The notes under the pieces are model-generated. The model saw only the letters and a program-made list of their open reading frames with translations. It was not told the DNA's origin and did not search any database. This document shows positions 47,446-61,799 of a stretch of 64,000 bases of DNA, piece after piece. Within the stretch, counting starts at the first letter, position 1, and each line of letters starts with the position of its first letter. Source of the DNA: Noviluteimonas gilva. Its GTDB lineage: Bacteria > Pseudomonadota > Gammaproteobacteria > Xanthomonadales > Xanthomonadaceae. Position numbers and translations under genes: made by a program. The stretch lies in NCBI RefSeq assembly GCF_009740395.1, contig NZ_WOXT01000001.1, positions 926,464-990,463 on the forward strand, given 5' to 3'.

Positions 47446-48660
47446 ATGAACGTTCGTCCCCTCGCCGCCCTTGCCCTCGCGGCCGTCACCACATCCATCA
47501 TCGGCCTTGCGCTCGCGCAGGTGCCGGCTCCCGCAGCGAAGCCCGCCGCGCCCGCCGCGCTGAGCGATTCGCTGCCCGTGCCGCCGCCCCCGCAGATCCA
47601 GGGCAAGGCCTGGGTGCTGATGGACTTCGCGACCGGCCAGGTCATCGCGGGCGACAACGGCGAGATGCAGGTCGAACCGGCGAGCATCACCAAGGTGATG
47701 ACCAGCTACGTCGTCGCCGCCGAAATGAAGTCCGGCAAGGTCAAGGGCACCGACCAGGTGATGATGAGCGAGCACGCGTGGCGCGAAGGCGGCGCGGGCA
47801 CCGAAGGCAGCTACAGCGGCTTCGAAGTGAACAAGACCGCGCCGCTGGTCGAGATGGAAAAGGGCATGGTCGTGCAGTCGGGCAACGACGCGGCGATCGC
47901 GCTCGCCGAACACGTCGCCGGCAGCGAAGACGCGTTCGCCTCGCTGATGAACGCCTATGCCGCACGCATCGGCATGCAGCACTCGCACTTCGTCAATCCG
48001 CACGGCCTCTCGGCGCCGGGCCATGTCTCGACCTCGCGCGACCTCGCGACCCTCGGCCGCGCGCTGATCCGCGATTTCCCCGAAGCGTATTCGTACAACA
48101 AGATCAAGGAATACACGGTCGGCCCGATCACGCAGCGCAACCGCAACCTGTTGCTGTGGCGCGACCCGTCGGTCGACGGCATCAAGACCGGCCACCACAG
48201 CGGCGCCGGTTACTGCCTGATGGCCTCGGCCAAGCGCGGCGACCAGCGCCTGATTTCGGTGGTCATGGGTTCGACCAGCGAAAACCAGCGCGCGGTGGAT
48301 TCGCAGGCGCTGCTCAACTGGGGCTTCCGCTTCTTCGAAACGCACCGCCTGTACGAAGCCAACAAGGCGATCTCGAAGCAGAAGGTGTGGAAGGGCGCGG
48401 CCGACGAAGTGCAGCTCGGCGTCGACGCGCCGATGCTGGTGAGCACGCCGCGCGGCAAGTACGCGCAGCTCAAGCCGAGCATGGAAATTCCGAAGACGCT
48501 CGTCGCGCCGATCGCGAAGGGTCAGAAGATCGGCAGCGTGAAGGTGACGCTCGACGGCAAGGTGATCGCGCAGCGTCCGCTGGTTGCGCTCAATGCGGTG
48601 GAAGAAGGTGGGTTCTTCAAGCGCATGTGGGATGAGCTGATGATGTGGTGGGATTCCTGA
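47446..48660 (+). CDS. dacC: D-alanyl-D-alanine carboxypeptidase (PBP5/6 type)
   Basis: 404 residues with a signal peptide (cleavage after ALAQ, residue 25). Active site motifs are S80-ITK83, SGN in VVQSGNDAAIAL, and KTG in GIKTGHHSGAGY. The C-terminal PBP5_C domain and the amphipathic anchor FFKRMWDELMMWWDS are present. It trims the terminal D-Ala of stem peptides. Last gene of the elongation and septal run. In many proteobacteria ybeD-lipB-lipA would come next; here an 11-kb insertion on the other strand intervenes. Confidence 0.96.
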   Translation: MNVRPLAALALAAVTTSIIGLALAQVPAPAAKPAAPAALSDSLPVPPPPQIQGKAWVLMDFATGQVIAGDNGEMQVEPASITKVMTSYVVAAEMKSGKVKGTDQVMMSEHAWREGGAGTEGSYSGFEVNKTAPLVEMEKGMVVQSGNDAAIALAEHVAGSEDAFASLMNAYAARIGMQHSHFVNPHGLSAPGHVSTSRDLATLGRALIRDFPEAYSYNKIKEYTVGPITQRNRNLLLWRDPSVDGIKTGHHSGAGYCLMASAKRGDQRLISVVMGSTSENQRAVDSQALLNWGFRFFETHRLYEANKAISKQKVWKGAADEVQLGVDAPMLVSTPRGKYAQLKPSMEIPKTLVAPIAKGQKIGSVKVTLDGKVIAQRPLVALNAVEEGGFFKRMWDELMMWWDS

Positions 48661-48772: not shown

Positions 48773-50560
48773 CTATCTGCCGTACGCGCCGTACAGATAC
48801 CGCCCCGTGCCATCGGGCCGCGGAACGTCGTTGTAATCCACAGCCGGCGGCTGCAACACCACCGGCAACGCGATCGCCGGAACGAACTGCTGATCCATCC
48901 GATACGGATGCAGCGGGTTGTCCGGATCGGTGAGGCGGTAATCCTTGTTCGCCAGGGAGCGCAGCAGGTTCGAAATGCCTTCGCCACTCACCGAGTGGGT
49001 CAGCAGCGGGAAGCTCGCCGGATTGATGTCGATGATGTTGTAAGCACCGCGAATGCGGTTGTCCGCACCTGGCGATCCGCCCATCGACGCGATGTCGCCA
49101 TCGACATCGGCATCGCGATTGCGCCAGAAGAGGTTGAAGTACACGTGCGCCGTGCTGTCCTGCACCGCGAGCCCGGCCCCGTCGTTGTCCGCGATCGTGT
49201 TGTTCAGGATCGTCACGAAGTTGCGGCCGTGGTTGCCGTTGGGTCCTGCGCACGTGTCGCCGCAATTGCCGTCGACGAGGATCGCGCCCGTGCCGAAGTT
49301 GCGCACCACGACGTTGTTGTAGACGTAGCCGACGGTGTACTGGTCGAGGAAGATCGCCGAGCCGGCCTTGGTCGTGCGATTGGCTTCGAACCAGTTGTTG
49401 CGCACGGTGAGCAACGCGACCGACGCGCTTCCGCCGCGATCGTGCTGGCCGATCAGGCCCGCGCCGACGCCGTAATGGTCGCCATCGGACACCGTGTCGT
49501 TGCCGAAGAACAGGTTGTGGTGCACATCGCCGTTCATGCCGATGGCCATGCCCGCGCCGTGCGGCAACGACTCCTCGTACAGACGGTTGTTGCGGATGAT
49601 GTTGTGGTGCACCTTCGCGACCGCGCCGGTCATGCTGACGACCGTGCCGAACCCATCGTTGGCGCTGGTGGTTTGATCCAGCGTGCCGATGTTCTCGGTG
49701 CCGCCGCCGACGTTGATGCCGCCGCCGTGGTGGCCGCCGCCGTTCTCTTCGATCAGGTTGTTGGCGATTTCCACCACGACCGTCCGGCCGCCGCCGACAT
49801 CCACGCCGCCGCAATCCGTGCGCGCCGTCGGCGTCGTGCAACCGTTGTGGTGCACGTGGTTGTTGCGCAGGGTGATGCGCTCGTTCGCATCCCACGCGGT
49901 CGCTTCGATGCCGCGATTGTTGCTGCCCGTGATCACGAACCCATCGATCGTCAGATCGATGGGCGCCTCCGCGTGCATGACGTGTTGGTTCGCGTTGGCG
50001 GCGGTGACGGTCGTGGGTGTGGCGAGCGCATTGCGCGCGGTGAATGTCGTGTTCAATCCACCGACGAGGATCTGCCGGCGCTGCATGCCGAGGTCGATGT
50101 TCTCGGAGTAAGCGCCGCTCGCAACGCAGATGACCGTGCGATTGCTGCCCGCGGCGACGACGGCTTGCGTGATCGTTCCGTAGGGATTGGCGCGCGTGCC
50201 GTTCCCCGTCGCGCCTGCGCGAACGAAAAGGCTGCCGTAGCCCGAAGGTCGCTGTGCATCGTTGATGCACCCGTAATCGAGATAGCCACTGCCGCCGATG
50301 CCCATCGTTGAAATCCGGATGGGGCGATGCGGGCCACCGGTCCTGACCGGATTCGGCCATAACGCGGCGAGGTTGGGAGCCGCCGTCGGTTCGACGGGCG
50401 TCGCGCGCGGCGCCGTCGCATTCGCGATGCGCGACGCCGCGACGCCTTTAGTCGCGACACGTGCGCTGTTGTTCGCGTTGCCACCCACGCCGCCACACGC
50501 TGCGAGGGTGCCCAACGCGCTCGTGTACAGCGCAATCCGCAACGCAGCCATCAGTTGCAT
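48773..50560 (-). CDS. Right-handed parallel beta-helix lipoprotein 2
   Basis: 595 residues. ATG at 50560 with GGGGGCGAG upstream; it overlaps the previous gene's stop by ten bases. The lipobox is LAAC (about residue 20). After RTGGPHRPI the chain has many pectate-lyase-like beta-helix coils, with repeated turns such as ITLRNNHVHHNG, VEIANNLIEENGGGHHGGG, VHHNIIRNN and VTILNNTIADNDGAG. Beta-helix proteins bind or cleave polysaccharides; no catalytic triad can be assigned. The lipid anchor suggests outer membrane attachment. It is the distal gene of the adhesin cluster. Confidence 0.83.
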   Translation of the reverse strand: MQLMAALRIALYTSALGTLAACGGVGGNANNSARVATKGVAASRIANATAPRATPVEPTAAPNLAALWPNPVRTGGPHRPIRISTMGIGGSGYLDYGCINDAQRPSGYGSLFVRAGATGNGTRANPYGTITQAVVAAGSNRTVICVASGAYSENIDLGMQRRQILVGGLNTTFTARNALATPTTVTAANANQHVMHAEAPIDLTIDGFVITGSNNRGIEATAWDANERITLRNNHVHHNGCTTPTARTDCGGVDVGGGRTVVVEIANNLIEENGGGHHGGGINVGGGTENIGTLDQTTSANDGFGTVVSMTGAVAKVHHNIIRNNRLYEESLPHGAGMAIGMNGDVHHNLFFGNDTVSDGDHYGVGAGLIGQHDRGGSASVALLTVRNNWFEANRTTKAGSAIFLDQYTVGYVYNNVVVRNFGTGAILVDGNCGDTCAGPNGNHGRNFVTILNNTIADNDGAGLAVQDSTAHVYFNLFWRNRDADVDGDIASMGGSPGADNRIRGAYNIIDINPASFPLLTHSVSGEGISNLLRSLANKDYRLTDPDNPLHPYRMDQQFVPAIALPVVLQPPAVDYNDVPRPDGTGRYLYGAYGR

Positions 50561-52578
50561 TGGCTCGCCCCCAGCGTCGTGTGCGCGGTGCGTGCGCTGA
50601 CCAACAACACGCCAGGCGTCCAACCACTGCCGTTGGCCTGCAATCGGATCTGATAGTTCGGACGCGCGGCGACGGGAATCTCCGGCGTCCACGCAACCGC
50701 CTGCGTGCAGATCGCGTTGCCGTTCACCGGCGCGGTCGTGCCCGGATTGAGCGGAAACGTTCCGGATGTCGTCAGGTTGGCGACACCGGTGACGTGGTGG
50801 TGGTCATGCGCGCCGGGATAACTGAACTCTTCGAGCGCGACTTCGTTGTCGCCGTAACCCGGCGTCGGATAGCCGGTCCACAAAGGTTGGTTCCAGTTGC
50901 TGGTGACGAAGTTGCGGCGCAACTCGATCTGCTCGCCCTTGTAGGTATTCCAGTGGAAAGGCTGTGCGTTCGAAAGCCCGTTACTGGCGCTCATCACCTG
51001 CACCGCATTGTTGACGGCGACGTAGCGACCCCAGAACTCTTCCGGCGTGCGACGACGAATCACGCCGTAGTCCTTCCCGTTGACGACCATGCGGAAGTCG
51101 ACGTTGTTGGGGTCGAGCACGAGGTTGCCGTCATAGAAGTCCCACGAGCTCGCGTTGTCCAGGCAGCAGCTGAACAAGGTCGCAGCCCCTTGGCTGCTGT
51201 TCTTGTTCAAGCTCGTCACGACGGTGTTGAAGTAGAACCACAGCTTGCCGCGGCGGCCGTCGATCGGGCTGTTGTCCGAACCGAAGTGCACCATCGAGGC
51301 GCCCATCGTCTGCACGTGCACCTTCTGGTCGCGACGGAAGATGTTGCCGTACATGAAGCTGCCGAACTGGTACTTCGCCCAGTCGCGCTGCATCGTGATG
51401 CGCGCCGCCGGCGTGGCCGCGCTCGGATCCTGGTCGGCCAGCAGGTTGAAGAACCACGGGAACACCGAGGGACGGAAGTCCTCGATGTCGATCAGGTCGA
51501 TCGAATGCGCGCCGTTCTCGAAATAGTTGTAGCGCACCAACTCACCGACCGTGCGCATCTTCAGGTCGTTGCCGTTGGAGGCTTCGTCGTTGTCGATGGT
51601 GCCGTTGTTGTCGATGTCCCAACGGATCGGATTGCCGAAGTAGTTGTACTGGACGACGAAGTTGACGCCCTGGATGTAGGCCTGGTGCACGTTGTAGTCG
51701 TCGACCAGGCCGTTGTCGTGGAAGTAGTTGCCTTCCAGCAGGAAGTTGCGCGTGAGGTAGTGGTCGCCGCCGTAATCCAGGCCGCGGCTGATGACGTAGA
51801 CGCCGACCGGGCAGAACGAGAACTCGTTGTCGCGCAGCGTGACGTCCTGCGCGCGCGAGACGTACAGGCAGCCGGTGTGCGAGTTGTACAGGTGCGACTG
51901 GTTGTCCATGCCGATGTAGCTGGCTTCGTGGTCGTCGCCGGCGTAGGGCGGCGTCATCGTGGCGGTCAGGTTCAAGCCTTCGACCGCGATGTTCCTGATG
52001 CCGCTGTCGCGCGCGATGGCCACGATGCCGCGATTGACCGTCGAATACTCCTCGCCCGGCGTGCCGATCTCGTTCTGCAACGCGCTGCTGTTGCGCACGC
52101 GTGCGTTCAGGCCGGAGATCTTCGGGCGAGCGCCGTTGCCGTCGCGAATGCCGCACACCTTGACGTCGCTGGTGACGATGAAGATGCGTTCGTTGTACGG
52201 CGTCGACTTCGGGTGGATGCGCACCATCGTGTGCGGCGGCAAGGATTCCCAAGCCACCTGCGCCAGGTTGGTGAGCGGCGCGGACGGGCCGACGTCGATC
52301 ACGTTGGCCGCGAAGTTGGCGTTGTCGGGATGGGCCGGATCGCAGTTCGCCGACGTGCGCGCTTCGCGCAGGTTCGGGAAGTCCTGGCCGGTGAAGCCGG
52401 TGTACTTGGCGATCGGTTGCGGGCCGCCGGTGCGGATGCGCGGGAACCCGTTGACGGGTGCCGGCGCCGGGCGTTTTTCCGCCACGACCTTCGGCGCGAC
52501 GGCGTGATTGCTTCCGCCGCTACAGGCGGCGAGGAGTCCAAGCGTGGTGATGCACAGTGTTGTCTTCAGCCAGTTCAC
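50551..52578 (-). CDS. Right-handed parallel beta-helix lipoprotein 1
   Basis: 675 residues from a GTG preceded by AGGGGGCTGTT; a longer frame has no signal. Lipobox GLLAAC (about residue 18). IRTGGPQPI near residue 50 matches the RTGGP motif of the next gene, so the two are diverged paralogues. Beta-helix coils include VEGLNLTATM, VTLRDNEFSFCPVGVYVIS and FLLEGNYFHDNGLVDDYNVH; the CLYVSRAQDVTLRDN turn is typical. Many Asn and aromatic ladders fit a polysaccharide-binding helix. Enzyme activity is unproved. Eight Cys or so suggest disulfides outside the cytoplasm. Confidence 0.83.
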   Translation of the reverse strand: MNWLKTTLCITTLGLLAACSGGSNHAVAPKVVAEKRPAPAPVNGFPRIRTGGPQPIAKYTGFTGQDFPNLREARTSANCDPAHPDNANFAANVIDVGPSAPLTNLAQVAWESLPPHTMVRIHPKSTPYNERIFIVTSDVKVCGIRDGNGARPKISGLNARVRNSSALQNEIGTPGEEYSTVNRGIVAIARDSGIRNIAVEGLNLTATMTPPYAGDDHEASYIGMDNQSHLYNSHTGCLYVSRAQDVTLRDNEFSFCPVGVYVISRGLDYGGDHYLTRNFLLEGNYFHDNGLVDDYNVHQAYIQGVNFVVQYNYFGNPIRWDIDNNGTIDNDEASNGNDLKMRTVGELVRYNYFENGAHSIDLIDIEDFRPSVFPWFFNLLADQDPSAATPAARITMQRDWAKYQFGSFMYGNIFRRDQKVHVQTMGASMVHFGSDNSPIDGRRGKLWFYFNTVVTSLNKNSSQGAATLFSCCLDNASSWDFYDGNLVLDPNNVDFRMVVNGKDYGVIRRRTPEEFWGRYVAVNNAVQVMSASNGLSNAQPFHWNTYKGEQIELRRNFVTSNWNQPLWTGYPTPGYGDNEVALEEFSYPGAHDHHHVTGVANLTTSGTFPLNPGTTAPVNGNAICTQAVAWTPEIPVAARPNYQIRLQANGSGWTPGVLLVSARTAHTTLGASQCN

Positions 52579-52624
52579 AACAGCCCCCTGTTGATGGATT
52601 GAATCGTGCGTCCTGCAAAGCAAC

Positions 52625-52655
52625 GCCCGACGGAACGCGGTGCGTTCCGTCGGGC
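52625..52655 (-). terminator. Perfect 14-base hairpin between the subtilase and beta-helix genes
   Basis: GCCCGACGGAACGC and GCGTTCCGTCGGGC flank a 3-base loop with no mismatch. On the minus strand it lies 57 bases after the protease stop and is followed by GTTGCTTTGC, a weak U-rich tail. It most likely ends the protease transcript before the beta-helix pair. Confidence 0.75.
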
Positions 52656-52711
52656 GCGCCGGTGTCCGCGCGCGCATCCGTGCGCAACGCAGCCACCACT
52701 CCCAGCGTGAA

Positions 52712-54532
52712 TCAGTTGTGGCGCGCTTCCAGCGTCACCGCGGTGAAGGCCTTCGCTCCGACGACCTTCACGTAGTACAGGCCGCCGCGCGTCACCGGCA
52801 CGCGGATGGTTTCGTTGTTGCCCGCGTGCACCGACGACAGGTCGTACGCGGTCGTCGTCGGCACCTGCGCGTAACGCACGAGCAACGTGACGTCGCCGGT
52901 GCCGCCGTAGGTCATGAAGCTCAGCGCGCTCGCACCGATCGGCACGTCGATCACGTACGACAGTTGCGCGTTCGCGGCGCCCGACAGGCCCTTGGCCGGC
53001 GTCTTGTTCACGAGCGGGCGCGCGGCGGTTTCGCAATCCGGGCCCTGGCAGGGCGGCAACACCGTCGCCACCGCAGCCTTCGCATCGAGGATGCCGGTGC
53101 CCATCGGTTGGTTGGTCGGAATCGTGACGGGGAAGCGGCGCGCGGTCGCCTTCAACATCGTTTCCATCTGCGCCGGCGTGAGCGGCGTGCTCGCCTTGCC
53201 CTGCACGAGCGCGGCGACCGCCGCGACGTGCGGCGCGGCCATCGACGTACCCGCCATGCCGCCGTACGCGGGACTGCCCAGTTCCGGCGCGGTCGCGCTG
53301 TCGTTGAGCGTCTGCCACACGTAACCGGCGGCGCCGCCGTCCTGGCCACCACCGCCGCCCGGCGCGGACAGGTCCACCTTCTTGCCGAAGTTGGAATAGA
53401 ACGCCTTGCCGCCGGTGATGCGCGACGCGCCGACGGTGATGACGTTGTTGCAGCTGGCCGGCGAGAACTCCGATGCATTCGCGTTGCTGTTGCCGGCCGA
53501 TACGACGACGGTCGTGCCGTTGGCCACGGCGGTGTCGATCGCGCTCTGCATCGACTCTTCGCACAGGAACTGGCCGCCAAGGCTCATGTTGATCACTTCG
53601 GCGGGATTCGCATTCGCCGGAACACCGGGCACCGTGCCGCCCGAGGCCCACACGATCGCGTCGGCGATGTCGGAGGTGTAACCGCCGCAACGACCGAGCA
53701 CGCGCACCGGCAACACCTTCGCGCCGTGCGCGACGCCGGCCAGGCCGATGCCGTTGTTCGAGACTTCGGCCACCGTGCCCGCCGTGTGCGTGCCGTGGAA
53801 GCTGCTGTTGCTCATCTCGCACTGGGTGAAGTCGTCGTTCCAGTCGCCGTAGTCGTGCGCGCCGGGCACGCGTTCGTCGGTCGCGCGGCGCGAGATGAAG
53901 GCATCGGAAATGAAGTCGTAACCCTGCAACAGGTTCGGCGAGAGATCGGGGTGATCGGTGACGCCGGTGTCGAGCACCGCGACGACGACGCCCGTACCGG
54001 TCGCGCTGTCCCACGCCGCCGGCGCCTTGATGCCGCCGACGGAGTTGTAGAAGTGCCACTGATACTGCTGGCTGAGCGGATCGTTCGGCAGCATCGTCGG
54101 CGCGGCGATGCCGGTGTGGTACAGACGACGATCCGGCGTGACGGACGCGACGTTCGGATCCGACGCGAGTGCGGAGAGCAGCGATGCGGTCGCGGCCGAA
54201 TCCAGCGAACGCGACAACGCGATCACGTCGGCGCCCGAGCCCATGCGGCGCACGTGGCGAACGGTGAGGCCGGGAATCGACGCGGCGATGCCCGAACGCA
54301 CGACGGCGGCGCGCGCTGCATCGAGTGCAGCCGTGGTGCTCGAACGCTGCAACGTGCCCGTGCGATAGCGCACGATGAAACGACGCTGCGGGGCCTGCTG
54401 CGTGGGCGCGGGCTTGGCGTCCTGGACGCGCACGGCGACGCCGGCGGCGGTCGCGCGCATGCCGACGAAGGAAAGCGAAACGGCCGCGGCGAGCGCGCAT
54501 GCGCCAAGGCACGTGGAAAGACGAAGGGTCAT
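52712..54532 (-). CDS. Secreted S8 family serine peptidase (subtilase)
   Basis: 606 residues. Signal peptide (about 1-30), an inhibitor-like propeptide (about 50-140, RRFIVRYRTGT onward), then the catalytic domain with D188 in AVLDTGV, H246 in HGTHTAGT and S429 in GTSMAAPHVA. The C-terminal 110 residues (about 490-606, SYVIDVPIGASALSFMTYG) form a PPC domain seen in proteases secreted by Xanthomonas and Lysobacter. The gene sits between the adhesin and the lipoproteins. It could process surface proteins of the cluster; that is inference. Its ribosome site (GGAA) is weak and abuts a hairpin. Confidence 0.93.
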   Translation of the reverse strand: MTLRLSTCLGACALAAAVSLSFVGMRATAAGVAVRVQDAKPAPTQQAPQRRFIVRYRTGTLQRSSTTAALDAARAAVVRSGIAASIPGLTVRHVRRMGSGADVIALSRSLDSAATASLLSALASDPNVASVTPDRRLYHTGIAAPTMLPNDPLSQQYQWHFYNSVGGIKAPAAWDSATGTGVVVAVLDTGVTDHPDLSPNLLQGYDFISDAFISRRATDERVPGAHDYGDWNDDFTQCEMSNSSFHGTHTAGTVAEVSNNGIGLAGVAHGAKVLPVRVLGRCGGYTSDIADAIVWASGGTVPGVPANANPAEVINMSLGGQFLCEESMQSAIDTAVANGTTVVVSAGNSNANASEFSPASCNNVITVGASRITGGKAFYSNFGKKVDLSAPGGGGGQDGGAAGYVWQTLNDSATAPELGSPAYGGMAGTSMAAPHVAAVAALVQGKASTPLTPAQMETMLKATARRFPVTIPTNQPMGTGILDAKAAVATVLPPCQGPDCETAARPLVNKTPAKGLSGAANAQLSYVIDVPIGASALSFMTYGGTGDVTLLVRYAQVPTTTAYDLSSVHAGNNETIRVPVTRGGLYYVKVVGAKAFTAVTLEARHN

Positions 54533-54541
54533 GTGAGTTCC

Positions 54542-54569
54542 AAAAAGATCGGGGCCGGTCCCTGGCCCC
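54542..54569 (-). terminator. Terminator or attenuator between adhesin and subtilase
   Basis: On the minus strand GGGGCC, a 7-base loop, GGCCCC and then GATCTTTTTGG. The U-run ends nine bases before the protease ATG at 54532, so the hairpin both ends the adhesin transcript and covers the region just upstream of the protease ribosome site. Confidence 0.75.
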
Positions 54570-54587
54570 AGAGGGAAAGGGGAGGGA

Positions 54588-57140
54588 TTACCAACCGAAG
54601 CCGACGCCGGCGCCGGCCGAGGCTTCGTCGTCGCTGAACGCGCCGCCGAGCGTGACCGTCATCTTTTCGCCGATCGCGCGCTGGTAACCGATCGACAGCG
54701 CCTGCGAGCTGCCGCTGAAACCGACGCCCACGCCGACGCGATTGGTCTGGTGCACGCCTGCCGCGCTCGTCGCCATGTTGAGCATCGCGGCGTTCATCGC
54801 GCCCATCTGGTCGATGCGTTCGTCGGTTTTGTCGAAGCGCTTGTTCACCTGGCTGCGCAGATCGTCGACGGCCTGCAACGGCGCGGCGACGAGATCGGCG
54901 AAGACCGCGTCGGTGTACGCACGCGACTCGTTGAGCGTGCGCGCGTCGCCTTCGTTCATCTGGCCGACGTTGGCCGCATCGGTATCGGCCGTGCCCGCCG
55001 CGACGTTGGTCACCTGGCGCTCGTGGCCCTGCGAACCGACGGAAACGGTGTTCGCGCGATCGGCGACCGAACCTTGGCCGAGCGCGACGGAATTCGTCGC
55101 CGCGGCGGTGACCGTTGCGCCTGCACCGATCGCCGTGCCACCGCTCGCCTGCACCGACGTGTTCTGACCGACGGCGACGGAGTTCGCCGACGTCGCTGCG
55201 GCATTGCTGCCGACCGCGACGCCACCGGTGCCGGTGGACTGCGCGTTCGAACCGATCGCGACGCCGCCGGTGCCCGTGCCCGCATTCGCATCGTCGGAAC
55301 CCGGCAGGCCGCCGTCGACGTCGACATGGCTGTCGTCGCCGCCGGTGCCGCCGGGCGCCGCGTTTTCGAGATCCGTCACGCGATCGTCGAGCGCGGTGAG
55401 CTGCGCGAGGTAGGTCTGGCCAAACGCGTACAGCTGCGCGCCGTTGATCGCATCCAGGCTGGTCGCGCTGATCATGCCGGCGCGCACGTTGGTCAGCGTC
55501 GTGCCGCCGAAGCCGCCGAAGCTCACGCGATCGGCGGTCATCGAGTCGTACGTCACCGCGTGCAGCGTGCTGCCGTCGGTGTCGACCAGGCCCGCCGCGC
55601 GCAACTGGCGCACGTTCACCGCGTCGAAATCTTCCGTGCCGTCGGCGACGTGCGTGAGCTGGCGTTCGAAGCCGTCGCTGCCGATCGACACCGAGTTCGC
55701 ACGATCGGCGACCGAGTTCGAACCCAGCGCGACCGCGTTGTCGGCCGACGCGCTGGCGTGCGCACCGAGCGCGACGCTCGCCGCGCCGCTGGCATCGCTG
55801 CCGAAGCCCATCGCGGCGCTTTCGTCGCCGATCGCGGCGGCGTTGTAACCGTTCGCCGTCGCGTATTCGCCGCGCGCCATCGCGCCATTGCCGACGGCCG
55901 TCGAAGCGGTGCCGAGCGCGTTGCTGTAGTTGCCCACGGCGGTCGACTGATCGGACTCGGCCATCGACATCGCGCCGACCGCGAGGCTGTCCAAACCGAT
56001 CGCCTGGCTCAGCGTGCCCATCGCGGTGGCCTGGTCGGCCATCGCCTGCGCGCCGGCGCCGACCGCGGTTGCGCCCTGGCCATCGGCGAAGGAACGCACG
56101 AGATCGCCGTCCCACACGCTGCCGTCGTCGGACGCGCCGACGAAATACGCGCCGCCGAGCACGGTGCTGTTCGCGCTGAGCGCGACCGCGCCGACGCCGA
56201 CCGCCGTCGACGCGAAGCCGTCGGCTTCGGCGAAGGAACCGATCGCGTTGGCGTAGTCGTACTGCGCGTACGCGCCGGTGCCGATCGCGCTGCTCCAGAA
56301 GCCTTCGGCCTGGGTGAACGAACCGATCGCCGTCGCGCTTTCGCCCGCGGCGTAGCTGCCCACGCCGATCGCGGTGGACGCCATGCCGTACGCGTACGAG
56401 GCCAGGCCCATCGCGGTGGCCTGCTCGCCGCGCGCGACGGCCGCTTCGCCGACCGCGACCGCGTCGTCGCCATCGGCGACCGCGCCGGTGCCGAGCGCCG
56501 TGCTGAAGTTGCCGGACGCCACCGAACCAGTGCCGACCGCAACGGACAGCGCGCCGGTCGCCTGCGTGTTGTGCCAGCCGGCGATCCAGTTGGTCGCGCC
56601 GCCGATGGCGACCGCGCCGTTGCCCGAGGCGATCGACATCGTGCCGATCGCGATGTCCTGCGAGGTCAGCGCCTGCGCGCTGTAACCCAGCGCGACGGTC
56701 CATTCGCCGGTGGCCATCGCGCCCCAGCCGAAGCCGATGGACTGGTTGCCCAGCGCCTTGGTGTACGGGCCGGCGGCGACCGAACCCCAACCCGCTTCGG
56801 TCGCGTCGTTGTCGGCCGAACCGTTGGAGGAGAAGTAATCCAGGCCGTCGTTGTCCGGCACCGGCGGCGGGCCTTCCTCGCCCGGCGCCGGCTTCAGTGC
56901 GACGACCGGCTGCGCGCCGGTCGCCAGCATGGCGTTGGGCGTGGCGACCACGGGCGCACGCGTGCATTCCAACACTGCGCGATAAAGGCCATTGGCGTCG
57001 GGTTCTGCGGACTCGACGACGCGACAATCGTCGCGCGTGGAGGTGGGTTCGACGTCCTGTCGGGCGGCCTGCTGCGCGAGCGCGGCGGGCGGCGTGGCGA
57101 TCATCAACAGCAGTGCGGCATACAACTTCGTGCGTGGCAT
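54588..57140 (-). CDS. Trimeric autotransporter adhesin (YadA family)
   Basis: 850 residues. Signal peptide ends at AALAQQ (about 23). A short N-terminal region with two Cys precedes a long head of about 25 heptad-to-14-residue Hep/Hag turns (ATAMGLASYAYGMASTAIGV, VAVGQNTSVQ). Two neck motifs occur: FERQLTHVADGTEDFDAVNV (about residue 545) and a near copy HERQVTNVAAGTADTDAANV (about 720). A coiled stalk (DDLRSQVNKRFDKTDERIDQ) leads to the YadA anchor barrel ending GAGVGFGW. It should form a trimer in the outer membrane that binds host or other cells. The regulator gene lies 84 bases upstream. Confidence 0.93.
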   Translation of the reverse strand: MPRTKLYAALLLMIATPPAALAQQAARQDVEPTSTRDDCRVVESAEPDANGLYRAVLECTRAPVVATPNAMLATGAQPVVALKPAPGEEGPPPVPDNDGLDYFSSNGSADNDATEAGWGSVAAGPYTKALGNQSIGFGWGAMATGEWTVALGYSAQALTSQDIAIGTMSIASGNGAVAIGGATNWIAGWHNTQATGALSVAVGTGSVASGNFSTALGTGAVADGDDAVAVGEAAVARGEQATAMGLASYAYGMASTAIGVGSYAAGESATAIGSFTQAEGFWSSAIGTGAYAQYDYANAIGSFAEADGFASTAVGVGAVALSANSTVLGGAYFVGASDDGSVWDGDLVRSFADGQGATAVGAGAQAMADQATAMGTLSQAIGLDSLAVGAMSMAESDQSTAVGNYSNALGTASTAVGNGAMARGEYATANGYNAAAIGDESAAMGFGSDASGAASVALGAHASASADNAVALGSNSVADRANSVSIGSDGFERQLTHVADGTEDFDAVNVRQLRAAGLVDTDGSTLHAVTYDSMTADRVSFGGFGGTTLTNVRAGMISATSLDAINGAQLYAFGQTYLAQLTALDDRVTDLENAAPGGTGGDDSHVDVDGGLPGSDDANAGTGTGGVAIGSNAQSTGTGGVAVGSNAAATSANSVAVGQNTSVQASGGTAIGAGATVTAAATNSVALGQGSVADRANTVSVGSQGHERQVTNVAAGTADTDAANVGQMNEGDARTLNESRAYTDAVFADLVAAPLQAVDDLRSQVNKRFDKTDERIDQMGAMNAAMLNMATSAAGVHQTNRVGVGVGFSGSSQALSIGYQRAIGEKMTVTLGGAFSDDEASAGAGVGFGW

Positions 57141-57224
57141 CGGGCGTCTCGCGACAGGGGTGGGTGAGCCCCCGACGCTGGCACGCACCCCGGCGCGCGC
57201 CATTCCAAACGCATGACGATCGCT

Positions 57225-59633
57225 TTACAGGCGCGTTACCACGGGCCTTTCGCCGGCCAGGCGGCGCGCGACGGCGAGTGCGGCCTGCTGTTGGCCGGCC
57301 TGTTGCAGGTGCGTGTAGAGGGCGACCTGCAACAACGCGAGTTCGAAATCGCGATCGGCCCAGGGCGCGACGCGACCGACGAGCGCCGTCGCCTCGTCCA
57401 GTCGTCCCTGCGAAAGCAGCCAACGCGCGCGTGCGGCGACCGCGTTGGCGATCATCCCGGGCACGCCGCTCGCCTCGGCGATGTCGATGGCGGATTTGTA
57501 CGCGGCATCGGCGGCGCGTTCGTCGCCTCCCCGACGGTGGCGTACGGCGACGGCGAGTTGTTTGGTCAGCGGATCGTTGTCGGCGGCCGAGTCGTTCGGC
57601 GGTGTCGGCAAGTCCGCATCGAGCGCCGCTTCCTGCACGCGCCAGGCGACCCACGCGCGCAAGCGGCCGTTGCGTTCGGCCGGCCAGTCGCGCAATGCCT
57701 GCGTGCCGATCCGCGCGGCCGTCGCCAGCTCGCCGCGTTGGCGCGCCAGTTCCATCTCCAGGTATTCGTGGCGATGGAAATCGCCGTGCGAGGCGGCGCG
57801 CGACTGCGGCAGGCGCAGCAACTTGTCCGCTTCCTGCAGGCGGCCGATGGCGATCAGGGTTTCGGCGCGGCCGAGCAACGCATCGGCGACATGCGCCGGA
57901 TCGCGAAGGCGATCGCGCACGGCCCACGCGCGGTCGCTCACGGCCAGCGCCTGGTCGGGTTGCAGCAGCAGCAAATGCATCGCGACGAGCATGTTGCGCA
58001 CGCCGGACAACTCCACCGTCGCATCGAGCGCCTTGAAGTCGCGCTCGGCTTTTTCGAAGGATTGCGCGGCCTGCTGCGGATGGTCGCGTTGCATTTCGAG
58101 CACGCCGAGATTGCCGTCGACCTTCGCGACCGACAGCCGATCGCCCGCGCGCAGCAGTTGCACGCGCGCGCTGCCGAGGTCGGCGAGCGCGTCGTCGAAG
58201 CGGCCCTGCGCCATGCGCGCGGTGCCGCGTCCGATCAGTGCGCGGCCTAGCTCACTTGCGTTGGGCGTCGGTGCGAACGCGGCGATCGCGCGATCGAAAC
58301 TGCGTTCGGCTTCGGCGTAGCGATCCAGGCGCATCAACAAGCGACCTTGCAAGGCTTCCAGTTGCGCGCGCAGCGTGGCGTCGGCCTGCACGTCGGGCAG
58401 TTGCAGCAGGCGCGTGGTTTTCTCGAGGCCGTCCACGTGCCGGCCATCGGCGAAATCGACCTGCGCGAGGCGGTATTGCAGTTGCGGCGTCAGGCGTTGC
58501 GCGAGCGGCGCGTCGAGCAGCAGGCGGCGTGCGGTTTCGGGATCGTTCGCGAGCAAGGCCGATTGCGCGCGCTGCAGGCGTTCGTCGAAATCCCGCGCGC
58601 CAAGCGCTCGCGTGCCCTGCGCGCTGTCGGGCGAGCCGCCGCCGATCGCGGCGAGCAACAGATCGGTCGCCTGCCGCGTCGCGCCGACGAGATCGGTGGC
58701 CGTCGCGCGGCCGGCAATGGTGTGTCCGTTCGCATCGCGCGCCGTCAGCGACACATCCCAACGCTGCCGCACGTTGCGCGCACGCGATTCGACGATCCAC
58801 GCCGCCGGCGAATCCTGCCGCATGCGCTGCGCATCCATTGTCGGGCCGTGCGCGCGCAACAGGGCGAGCGTCGCTTCGCTCGACCACACGGGTTGATTCG
58901 CGCGGCGCAAGCGATCGACGACGAAATCCATCATGCCCAGGCGCGCCCACGCGGCGGTGTCGTCGCCTTCCACCTGCATCGGCAAGATGATGATGGCGTC
59001 GCGCGATTGGGTGGCGACGGCGTTGGCCTTCGACCACGGCAGATGCGGCCATGCGACATACGTGGCGATCGAGAACAAAGCGATGAATGCGAGTGCGAGC
59101 GGGAGCCAGCGGCGTGGTTTTGGCGGGACGACGACGGCAGCGTGTTCGGGCGCGCGATCATCGTTCGCTGCACGATGCGGCGGTGGTTCTTCGGTGCGTG
59201 GTTCGACGATGGGAGGCGCGACGACAGCAGACGCAACGATGGCCGGCGCAACAACCACGGGTTCGACGACGGCCGGCTCCGCAACAACCTCTTCGCCGAG
59301 CACCTCGACGTCCATCGCCCAACGGAACCCGAAGCGCGGCACGGTGCGAATCGCACGCTGCTCCTGCCCGTCATCGCCGACCGCGCGCCGCGCGCGCAAC
59401 ACAACCTGCGCCAGCTGCGCATCGGAGACATCGGGCCGGCCGAAGACCGCGCGCACCAGTTCATCGCGGCCGACGGCGCGGTCGCGATGTTCGATCAGGG
59501 TCTGCAGGCATTCGAAAACGCGCGCAGGAAGCGGCTGCGGCACGCCGTCCAGGCGGAGCTCGCGTCGCGCGAGGTCGAGCACGCGCGCACCGAAACGGTA
59601 GCGGGCGGAAGTCGGCTCGGGGCGGTGTCGCAT
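57225..59633 (-). CDS. Membrane-anchored winged-helix regulator with TPR sensor (CadC/ToxR-like)
   Basis: 802 residues from the ATG at 59633. The winged-helix DNA-binding domain is residues 10-107 (YRFGARVLDLARRELRLDG to RTVPRFGFRWAM), of the OmpR/ToxR class without a receiver. A Val/Pro/Glu/Ala repeat linker (about 112-150) and a transmembrane helix (about 176-196) put the rest outside the inner membrane. That part is about 600 residues of TPR-like repeats (for example ALQGRLLMRLDRYAEAERSF). It probably senses envelope state and may switch on the adhesin gene 84 bases downstream. I infer this from position only. Confidence 0.85.
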   Translation of the reverse strand: MRHRPEPTSARYRFGARVLDLARRELRLDGVPQPLPARVFECLQTLIEHRDRAVGRDELVRAVFGRPDVSDAQLAQVVLRARRAVGDDGQEQRAIRTVPRFGFRWAMDVEVLGEEVVAEPAVVEPVVVAPAIVASAVVAPPIVEPRTEEPPPHRAANDDRAPEHAAVVVPPKPRRWLPLALAFIALFSIATYVAWPHLPWSKANAVATQSRDAIIILPMQVEGDDTAAWARLGMMDFVVDRLRRANQPVWSSEATLALLRAHGPTMDAQRMRQDSPAAWIVESRARNVRQRWDVSLTARDANGHTIAGRATATDLVGATRQATDLLLAAIGGGSPDSAQGTRALGARDFDERLQRAQSALLANDPETARRLLLDAPLAQRLTPQLQYRLAQVDFADGRHVDGLEKTTRLLQLPDVQADATLRAQLEALQGRLLMRLDRYAEAERSFDRAIAAFAPTPNASELGRALIGRGTARMAQGRFDDALADLGSARVQLLRAGDRLSVAKVDGNLGVLEMQRDHPQQAAQSFEKAERDFKALDATVELSGVRNMLVAMHLLLLQPDQALAVSDRAWAVRDRLRDPAHVADALLGRAETLIAIGRLQEADKLLRLPQSRAASHGDFHRHEYLEMELARQRGELATAARIGTQALRDWPAERNGRLRAWVAWRVQEAALDADLPTPPNDSAADNDPLTKQLAVAVRHRRGGDERAADAAYKSAIDIAEASGVPGMIANAVAARARWLLSQGRLDEATALVGRVAPWADRDFELALLQVALYTHLQQAGQQQAALAVARRLAGERPVVTRL

Positions 59634-59748: not shown

Positions 59749-59760
59749 AAATAATTAAAT
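59749..59760. promoter_or_regulatory. AT-only 12-base tract in the divergent regulator/ybeD gap
   Basis: AAATAATTAAAT stands in a very GC-rich context. It lies 56 bases before the ybeD ATG and 116 before the regulator ATG on the other strand, and could provide the -10 region for either. No matching -35 hexamer was found. Confidence 0.3.
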
Positions 59761-59815
59761 GGAGCGTCGTACTGTCGGGGTTGGGTTCGCCGGATCACGG
59801 TCCCATAATCCGGCG

Positions 59816-60094
59816 ATGGAGATCAAGTCCGACAACCCCGAGCACGGCTTCCAGTTTCCCGGCACCTTCGAGCTCTCCGCCATGGGCTCGGCCGACAAGG
59901 ACCTGCAGGCCGAACTCCCGCGGCTGCTGATGGACGCGGGCATCGACGTGGTGAGCGAATCGGTCAGCTGGAAGCACTCTTCCAACGGCAAGTACGTCTC
60001 GGTGCGCATCGCCTTCAAAGCCGACTCACGCGAGCAGTACGACGCCGCGCACGCGGCCCTGCGCGCGCATCCCGAGGTGAAGTGGACGCTGTGA
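59816..60094 (+). CDS. ybeD: YbeD (UPF0250, DUF493) family protein
   Basis: 92 residues from the ATG at 59816; an upstream in-frame start lacks conservation. YbeD has an ACT-like fold ([40 protein letters not shown]). Known YbeD is coded with lipB, as here; its function may be in lipoate or amino-acid sensing but is not settled. The stop overlaps the lipB GTG. Confidence 0.93.
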
Positions 60095-60795
60095 GCGTCG
60101 CCGCCGCGCCGGATGTGGCCGTTGCGCGCGCGATCGCCGCGCCCCCGGCGCACGTGCGCGACCTCGGCCGCATGGCCTACGAACCGGTTTGGCGCGCGAT
60201 GCAGGCCTTCACCGATGCGCGCACCGAACAAACGCCCGACGAAATCTGGCTGGTCGAGCACGATCCGGTGTTCACGCTGGGCCAGGCCGGCAAGCCTGAA
60301 CACGTGCTGATGCCGGGAGATATCCCCGTGATCCACGTCGATCGCGGCGGGCAGGTCACGTACCACGGCCCGGGCCAGATCGTCGCCTACCCCTTGCTCG
60401 ACCTCAAACGGCTGAAGGTGGGCGTGCGCGAGTACGTCCACCGCATCGAACAGGCCGTCATCGACACCCTGGGCGACTGGAACATCGTGGCGCAGCGCCG
60501 CGACGGCGCGCCCGGTGTCTATGTGAACGATGCGAAGGTCGCCGCCCTGGGCATCCGCGTGCGCCGCGGCTGCACCTTCCACGGCCTCGCATTCAACATC
60601 GCGATGGACCTGGAGCCCTTCCGCCGGATCAATCCGTGCGGTTATGCGGGCCTGCAGGTGGTCGCGATGGACGACCTGGGCGGCCCGAACGACCTCGACG
60701 CCGTCAAACCCAAGCTGCTGGAGCACCTCGCCGTACAATTCGGCCTGCGGCTCCAGCCCGCGCCCCCCGAATTGTTCGCGACACCTTCCCCATGA
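60091..60795 (+). CDS. lipB: Octanoyl-[acyl carrier protein]:protein transferase LipB
   Basis: 234 residues from GTG 60091, which overlaps the ybeD stop (GTGA); GTG 60082 is possible. It moves octanoyl from ACP to lipoyl domains. The conserved [20 protein letters not shown] and the catalytic Cys in [11 protein letters not shown] are present, along with the Lys in [13 protein letters not shown] that pairs with it. The stop overlaps lipA by four bases, so the three genes form one coupled unit. Confidence 0.96.
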
Positions 60796-61799
60796 GCGAA
60801 ACCGAGTCCAAGGCCATCCCGCTGACCATCGTCGGCGATGCCGCACCGTCGCTCGTGCCGGGCGCGAAGCAAATCGCGGGCGACAAGATCGCGCGCTCGC
60901 CGGTGCAGTTCGCCGACACGCCGGTGTTGCGCAAGCCGTCCTGGATCCGCGTGCGCATCCCGTCGGGCAACTCGGTGGCCAACCTCAAGGCCAAGCTGCG
61001 CGAGAACCGCCTGGTCACGGTGTGCGAGGAAGCCAGCTGCCCGAACATCCACGAGTGCTTCAGCCACGGCACCGCGACTTTCATGATCCTCGGCGAGGTG
61101 TGCACGCGCCGCTGCTCGTTCTGCGACGTCGCCCACGGCCGCCCGAAACCGCCGGATGCCGGCGAGCCCCTGCACCTGGCGACGACCATCGCCGACATGG
61201 GCCTGAAGTACGTCGTGATCACCTCCGTCGACCGCGACGACCTGCGCGACGGTGGTGCCCAGCACTTCGTCGACTGCATCAGCGCGGTGCGCCACCACAG
61301 CCCGCGCACGAAGATCGAGATCCTCACGCCCGACTTCCGCGGCAAGGGCCGCATGGACCGCGCGCTGGAAATCCTCGCGAACAACCCGCCGGATGTGTTC
61401 AACCATAATGTCGAGACGGTGCCGGATCTTTATTCGAACGTCCGCCCCGGCGCCGACTACACCTGGTCGCTGACGCTGCTGAAGAAGTTCAAGGCGCAGC
61501 ATCCCGACGTCGCCACCAAGTCCGGGATCATGCTCGGGCTGGGCGAGACGATGGAGCAGGTGCAGGCGACGCTGCGCAACCTGCGCGCGCACGACGTCGA
61601 CATGATCACCATCGGCCAGTACCTCCAGCCCAGCCCGCACCACCATCCGGTGCTGCGTTACTGGACGCCCGACGAGTTCAAGGCGCTCGAGGTGTACGGC
61701 ATGTCGCTCGGCTTCACCCACGTGGCCTCGGGGCCGTTGGTGCGCTCGTCGTACCACGCCGACCGGCAGGCGATAGACGCGGGCTTCGTCGCGGCGTAA
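60792..61799 (+). CDS. lipA: Lipoyl synthase LipA
   Basis: 335 residues. Radical SAM enzyme that inserts two sulfurs into octanoyl-lysine. Auxiliary cluster Cys are in [15 protein letters not shown]; the SAM cluster is in [16 protein letters not shown]-terminal [12 protein letters not shown] with RSSYHA holds the Ser ligand of the auxiliary cluster. The N-terminal 60 residues are variable. The intergenic region after it (61800-62030) holds a short direct repeat TTCGGATTC at 61810-61827 and no gene. Confidence 0.98.

Follow-up and report, generated by a model that had tools for sequence, protein, structure and literature searches.

The window analysed here is a 64,000-nt stretch of the Noviluteimonas gilva genome (contig NZ_WOXT01000001.1, positions 926,464 to 990,463), in which five minus-strand genes separate dacC from ybeD-lipB-lipA, as a first-pass annotation of the sequence had noted and as open reading frames (ORFs) and Pfam matches confirm. 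In the order of their strand, these genes encode a membrane regulator (57225-59633) with a winged-helix DNA-binding domain, one membrane span (placed by eye) and a far-side TPR domain; a predicted trimeric autotransporter adhesin of the YadA type (54588-57140) with YadA head repeats, stalks and a membrane anchor; a subtilase of family S8 (52712-54532) with a signal-peptide-like start, a catalytic domain and a C-terminal PPC domain, which belongs to the adhesin-linked clade described below; and two lipoproteins, each with an LAAC lipobox, P2 (50551-52578), a possible beta-helix, and P1 (48773-50560), a probable right-handed beta-helix. The intergenic gaps from the regulator to P2 measure 84, 55 and 133 nt, and the end of P2 and the beginning of P1 share 10 bp, so that a single transcript of all five genes is possible. 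The block is bordered on the left by a dacC-type D-Ala-D-Ala carboxypeptidase gene (47446-48660, plus strand; Peptidase_S11 6e-77, PBP5_C 4e-27) and on the right by the plus-strand genes ybeD (DUF493; 59759-60094), lipB (60082-60795) and lipA (60795-61799, start approximate; Radical_SAM, LIAS_N). The unit that recurs among relatives is the adhesin together with the subtilase.

The domain content of the adhesin (YadA_head 5e-48 in 12 stretches, YadA_stalk 2.5e-19 and YadA_anchor 5e-8, all above cut-off) marks it as a putative trimeric autotransporter, that is, a type Vc protein. The subtilase matched Peptidase_S8 (1.8e-58) and PPC (5.9e-9) and, up to E 0.1, nothing else, an autotransporter beta domain included. 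Its catalytic residues are intact: D188, H246, N348 and S430, which we take from knowledge of the family to be the Asp-His-Ser triad and the oxyanion Asn, are invariant in all 29 sequences compared. The nearest solved structures include the "alkaline serine protease" 9i67 (616 bits) and AprV2/BprV (424-441 bits), which share its catalytic-domain family. Xylella PrtA, considered as a further relative, was dropped, since the available part of its report describes it as trypsin-like (PMC4974619).

Relatives of the adhesin occur in 28 of the 60 genomes searched and relatives of the subtilase in at least 56. We took 120 stretches, searched their ORFs and called a subtilase linked when a YadA anchor gene was adjacent. 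Among the 89 subtilases kept, 35 were linked and 54 unlinked (one row relabelled), and 34 of the linked ones lie directly behind the adhesin on the same strand, the remaining one (G055) lying before it. On a maximum-likelihood tree of these 89 rows, linked and unlinked subtilases form the two sides of one branch (Shimodaira-Hasegawa-like approximate likelihood-ratio test, SH-aLRT, 99), and the linkage label changes once, versus a mean of 27.8 when shuffled. We then added further loci, namely the best 80 from a scan of one genome per species and those of a 274-genome sample of the class (organisms overlap between the two locus sets), and built a joint FastTree tree of 211 rows, 203 of them distinct, which drew a long-branch warning that concerns mostly class-sample rows. 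Its best clade (support 99) holds all 82 linked subtilases, two unlinked ones and three rows at contig edges, while 123 unlinked rows and one contig-edge row fall outside. Both unlinked members lie in adhesin loci on inspection: in L238 a large adhesin gene stands head-to-head with the subtilase and its anchor end lies beyond the locus, and in L257 it is a second subtilase right behind a linked one. No YadA anchor matched in 28 class-sample loci (L282-L309), whose flanks are limited to about 1.5 kb on either side. Among the genera with linked loci are Xanthomonas, Stenotrophomonas, Luteimonas, Lysobacter, Pseudoxanthomonas, Dyella and Frateuria. One locus filed under Bacillus subtilis SK7B5 (L214) carries an adhesin-subtilase-type II arrangement very near that of Stenotrophomonas sp. 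BIGb0135 (L208) and is probably a contaminant or wrongly labelled.

The linked subtilases share a compact plan, in which the stretch between the GTS motif and the C-terminus measures 173-185 residues (5-95% range; 75 of 82 rows have a readable motif), and they end in a PPC region, PPC being matched in 79 of the 82 rows; solo subtilases vary in plan. By eye, we saw no feature peculiar to the C-termini of linked adhesins in 40 of the 80 linked sequences and eight unlinked ones, three of the latter being special cases (L174 in reverse order, L267 behind another pair, L227 near the end of its locus).

The two genes of the pair have also been inherited together in good part, though not always. Distances among adhesin C-termini and among subtilases are correlated over 80 pairs (r 0.58; the highest of 1000 permutations gave 0.20), and for 11 of the 19 genus pairs the closest adhesin and the closest subtilase in another genome come from the same pair (mean 1.9 and maximum 9 when partners were shuffled within genomes). 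The window genome itself carries four adhesin-subtilase pairs. Seen from the adhesin, at least 26 of the 38 PF03895 anchors, which occur in 15 of 36 genomes, adjoin a subtilase.

Contexts of the pair were counted over 76 loci (80 pairs), with each cluster identified by the Pfam matches of one or two of its members. A GspE-cluster frame lies directly behind the subtilase in 18 loci, at -150 to 383 bp between stop-to-stop frames, two of which overlap, and clusters for GspF, GspG and GspH follow further downstream in many of these. Upstream of the pair, a histidine kinase and/or an OmpR-type response regulator was found in 23 loci (both in 19), and a regulator of the window type stands beside the pair in nine. 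Not one locus combines two of these three contexts. The window subtilase groups with that of L200 (97), another regulator-adhesin-subtilase lineage; in the L200 genome, lipB is at 301 k on contig C18 and the regulator-adhesin-subtilase unit at 461-479 k of its record. Because this unit is not beside lipB, it is older than, or independent of, the dacC-lipB site.

Two further genes accompany the pair in places. A small lipoprotein-like gene lies between subtilase and regulator in three loci (L123:7917-8447, L126:7757-8251, L241:9666-10142); two of the three products match peptidase-inhibitor family I42 (chagasin-type), and the third is picked up by a profile made from these. The lipoprotein may protect its cell against the protease, although cysteine peptidases are what I42 proteins are known for. 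In two-component loci of Xanthomonas, a gene for a kumamolisin activation domain with fibronectin type III (L225:9781-12003, by Pfam on L225 alone) follows the pair, with matching frames in L219 and L228.

We propose, as a reading to which we give an even chance, that the subtilase is exported by type II secretion and acts at the surface of its own cell on the partner adhesin, here under the adjacent regulator; the export route, the substrate and the sensing role are what we infer. At the core would stand two genes, one for a YadA-type adhesin and, behind it, one for a subtilase whose clade has been seen in such adhesin loci alone. The protease would leave the cell by way of a Sec-type signal peptide and type II secretion, and would trim, mature or shed the partner adhesin, so that attachment is undone or tuned. 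At the window locus the pair would be controlled by a ToxR/CadC-like regulator whose TPR domain would sense the envelope, and elsewhere the pair would go with the operon for type II secretion or with two-component genes. Three things make type II export the likely route: the subtilase starts with what resembles a signal peptide, a type II operon lies behind 18 of the pairs, and the window genome has gspD.

Several observations weigh against this proposal. Adjacency is not interaction, and by itself it is equally compatible with the two proteins acting together on a foreign surface. In 26 of the 76 loci no context of the three was detected, although some of these are cut and one (L080) was counted as context-less since its regulator is shortened. 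With the edge rows left out, the linkage label needs three changes on the 211-row tree, and in 8 of the 19 genus pairs the best partners disagree. Only three positions, weakly diagnostic, separate linked from other subtilases (82 versus 96 rows), so that a narrowed specificity is not visible. A terminator-like hairpin with a T tail (54550-54570, minus strand) stands between adhesin and subtilase in the window, and a similar one in the same gap of the orthologue in the congener G003, which loosens co-transcription; terminator-like sites in the region show no excess (9, versus 8.4 in shuffles), and a hairpin occurs in 10 of 77 adhesin-subtilase gaps, versus 0.6 in mononucleotide shuffles. Finally, 12 of the 38 anchors have no such subtilase among the matches listed (to E ~3e-16, so that a very distant neighbour could escape), and the adhesin thus does not need the subtilase. 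The last point has a second side: clade members with readable context are all in adhesin loci while adhesins also occur alone, a one-sided relation that dependence of the protease on the adhesin would predict, and the confinement of the protease clade suggests that the protease serves the adhesin.

The alternative that survives best is that adhesin and subtilase are co-regulated and act on the same foreign surface, be it prey, fungus, plant or host, the adhesin holding the cell while the subtilase degrades, so that the tie between them is ecological, not chemical. The nearest solved structures include 9i67 and AprV2/BprV, secreted proteases of broad action; the type II export operon found with the pair and the kumamolisin-activation-domain gene behind it in some Xanthomonas loci would likewise suit such a role. 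However, an enzyme of free degradative action would be expected to turn up without the adhesin as well, which members of the clade with readable context do not, and the solo subtilases lie outside the clade, where none of 123 adjoins an adhesin. We therefore regard action on a foreign surface as unlikely, if far from negligible.

Trimeric adhesins, including the XadA adhesins of Xanthomonas and Xylella, are attachment factors, and we know of no dedicated release enzyme for this class; FhaB of Bordetella, an adhesin of another kind, is a two-partner-secretion protein. The pairing itself has a precedent in X. arboricola, in which XadA homologues, three adhesins per strain, are each followed by an S8 protease and two pairs lie near the xps type II cluster (PMC12448352). 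Adhesin type and gene order are the same as in the window pair; as far as the available part of that report goes, it concerns one species and deals with neither a protease clade nor its wider spread nor a mechanism. It is the sole mention of adhesin-protease pairing that we found, in its available part, and our literature searches, with result listings scanned in part, returned no report of a dedicated protease clade, its spread or its contexts. Processing of adhesins by subtilases is already known. According to the part of the work available, SphB1, a subtilisin-type autotransporter of Bordetella, processes the adhesin precursor FhaB (PMC6070651), and the window pair would have in common with it a subtilisin-type protease acting on an adhesin precursor; SphB1 is itself an autotransporter, whereas the window protease lacks an autotransporter domain and the window adhesin is trimeric. 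NalP of Neisseria, in the accessible text, is a surface protease that releases an autotransporter passenger (PMC6555100), but it is itself an autotransporter and its target a type Va protein, whereas the partner adhesin here is trimeric. In X. fastidiosa, XadA adhesins have been detected in outer-membrane vesicles as well as in the secretome (PMC7555403, PMC4709584), which would fit adhesin release; the available parts of these studies test no link to a subtilase. To our knowledge, a clade of adhesin-linked subtilases tied to trimeric adhesins, in part within a type II secretion locus, is new.

More broadly, we suggest tentatively, at rather less than an even chance, that Lysobacterales possess an as yet unnamed adhesin-release switch in which a trimeric adhesin would be cut by its own type II-secreted subtilase, the pair being multicopy in some genomes and wired separately to a secretion operon, two-component systems or TPR-type regulators. 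A protease clade confined to trimeric adhesin loci is a direct and testable candidate for a release enzyme, and it ties type V adhesins to type II secretion in one locus. If the proposal is true, a cell could use the switch to leave one surface or another, each on its own command, and annotators could separate adhesin-serving from other secreted subtilases of these genera by phylogeny.

The first-pass annotation had read all five genes as a single system for attachment and degradation that carries its own regulator. To follow the site across relatives, we read 34 lipB neighbourhoods (4 of the genus, 30 outside it), with gene matches at E 1e-8. Of the 30 neighbourhoods outside the genus, 20 allowed both dacC and ybeD to be located, with 0-3,102 bp between them; in the other ten, dacC or ybeD was not found in the stretch, partly owing to contig ends, and in one of these (L115) dacC lies 59 bp from lipB. 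None of the 30 matched any of the five block genes. Within the genus, G003 has all five genes at the site in 10.9 kb, and G001 has all five in 9.4 kb with the regulator shortened. The G002 site holds regulator, adhesin and subtilase, then an RHS-like gene before dacC, and the 690 bp at the G004 site hold a DNA-binding stub alone. In G002, the coding sequence that replaces P2-P1 between subtilase and dacC (L081:11116-14499, L195:3-1511) is RHS-repeat-like by eye.

P1 was found in 5 of the 60 genomes, all of the genus and including the window genome, and P2 in six, of which five belong to the genus and the sixth, G043, has a distant partial match. The latter relative (L116:9535-11064) is 35% identical over 270 residues and scores 25.5 for Beta_helix, just under the cut-off of 25.9. 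Searched at 1e-8 in 398 sampled genomes of the phylum, the P2 profile matched the window genome alone, and the P1 and P2 profiles had zero matches in 80 named subtilase loci. P2 and P1 are adjacent in all five genomes of the genus but sited elsewhere in G002 and G004; in G004, P1 is split across two frames (L085:7847-9585) and its partner P2 reads through.

Because the interval outside the genus is 0-3.1 kb and holds no block genes, and because P2-P1 is sited elsewhere in G002 and G004, the block is a gain within Noviluteimonas from at least two modules, P2-P1 being a separate, genus-specific lipoprotein pair that joined the adhesin-subtilase unit in some species. The genes are thus neither scattered and never together nor an ancient core present in all relatives, and the split of dacC from ybeD-lipB-lipA stands as first described; a constant set of five is not what we found, the set being complete in the window genome and G003. 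One system of five genes would draw on their collinearity in the window genome, in G003 and, with a shortened regulator, in G001, on the short gaps and the P2/P1 overlap, and on the presence of P2-P1 in every genus genome searched. Given the placement of P2-P1 at other sites in two of those five genomes, the lack of P1 and P2 matches in the named loci and the occurrence of regulator-adhesin-subtilase without P2-P1 in L200 and L273, we consider it improbable; what stands of the earlier claim is a co-inherited unit, with a regulator, that makes up part of the block. Least probable by our estimate, and only slightly credible, is that the pairing is a neutral genomic habit of genes joined once and then duplicated together, for although linked rows form one side of one branch and pairs have co-duplicated, the pair has been kept across many genera and next to three types of neighbour, the subtilase did not turn up apart from the adhesin where context is readable, and neutral neighbours would be expected to separate.

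A recent mobile-element insertion as the origin of the block was set aside provisionally: guanine-cytosine content per kb is even (61-72% in the block, 65-70% in the flanks), there is no tRNA gene within the window and the five genes fill the block, and no mobile-element family search was made.

The description of P1 and P2 as beta-helix lipoproteins stood for the lipoprotein part, the lipobox residues of each being invariant across five aligned orthologues. The beta-helix part is weakly backed: P1 scores 20.7 bits for DUF1565 (cut-off 20.3) and 15.3 for Pectinesterase (cut-off 27), and P2 scores 15.7 for Beta_helix, under its cut-off of 25.9. A structure model of P1 built from five sequences is weak (mean predicted local distance difference test score, pLDDT, 47.5), and its fold search, with PfbA at E 7e-4 (template-modelling scores, TM, 0.20/0.24) and RbmB at E 1.7e-3 (TM 0.34/0.52), gives from this weak model a general beta-helix answer alone. 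The model of P2, also from five sequences, has no usable fold (mean pLDDT 27.6), and profiles of both proteins against the sequences of solved structures returned nothing useful.

The regulator matches Trans_reg_C (5e-11, 42.9 bits, cut-off 26.2) in addition to TPR. The placement of all five products at the cell surface does not extend to it, as its sequence points to an inner-membrane protein whose DNA-binding domain faces the cytosol, the span being assigned by eye. Its N-terminal winged-helix domain is in common with CadC/ToxR-like membrane regulators, as would be the putative single membrane span and the presence of a far-side domain, and it differs from them in that this domain is TPR-rich; against the NCBIfam CadC equivalog it scores 24.9 bits, below the cut-off of 400. 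The TPR part probably senses the envelope. Relatives of the regulator occur in 54 of the 60 genomes, many matching the DNA-binding domain alone. In G001 the regulator (L080:2606-3172) stops after the DNA-binding domain and membrane span, at ~189 codons, and in G004 a 136-codon DNA-binding stub (L083:2573-2980) lies beside ybeD; both still match Trans_reg_C. Ratios of nonsynonymous to synonymous substitution rates (dN/dS) over 92 codons are 0.14 between the window and G001, 0.14 between the window and G004 and 0.18 between G001 and G004, which suggests that constraint on the DNA-binding part persists. It has been retained though G001 lacks the TPR part and G004 the other block genes at the site, and perhaps, by way of speculation, it has another target nearby.

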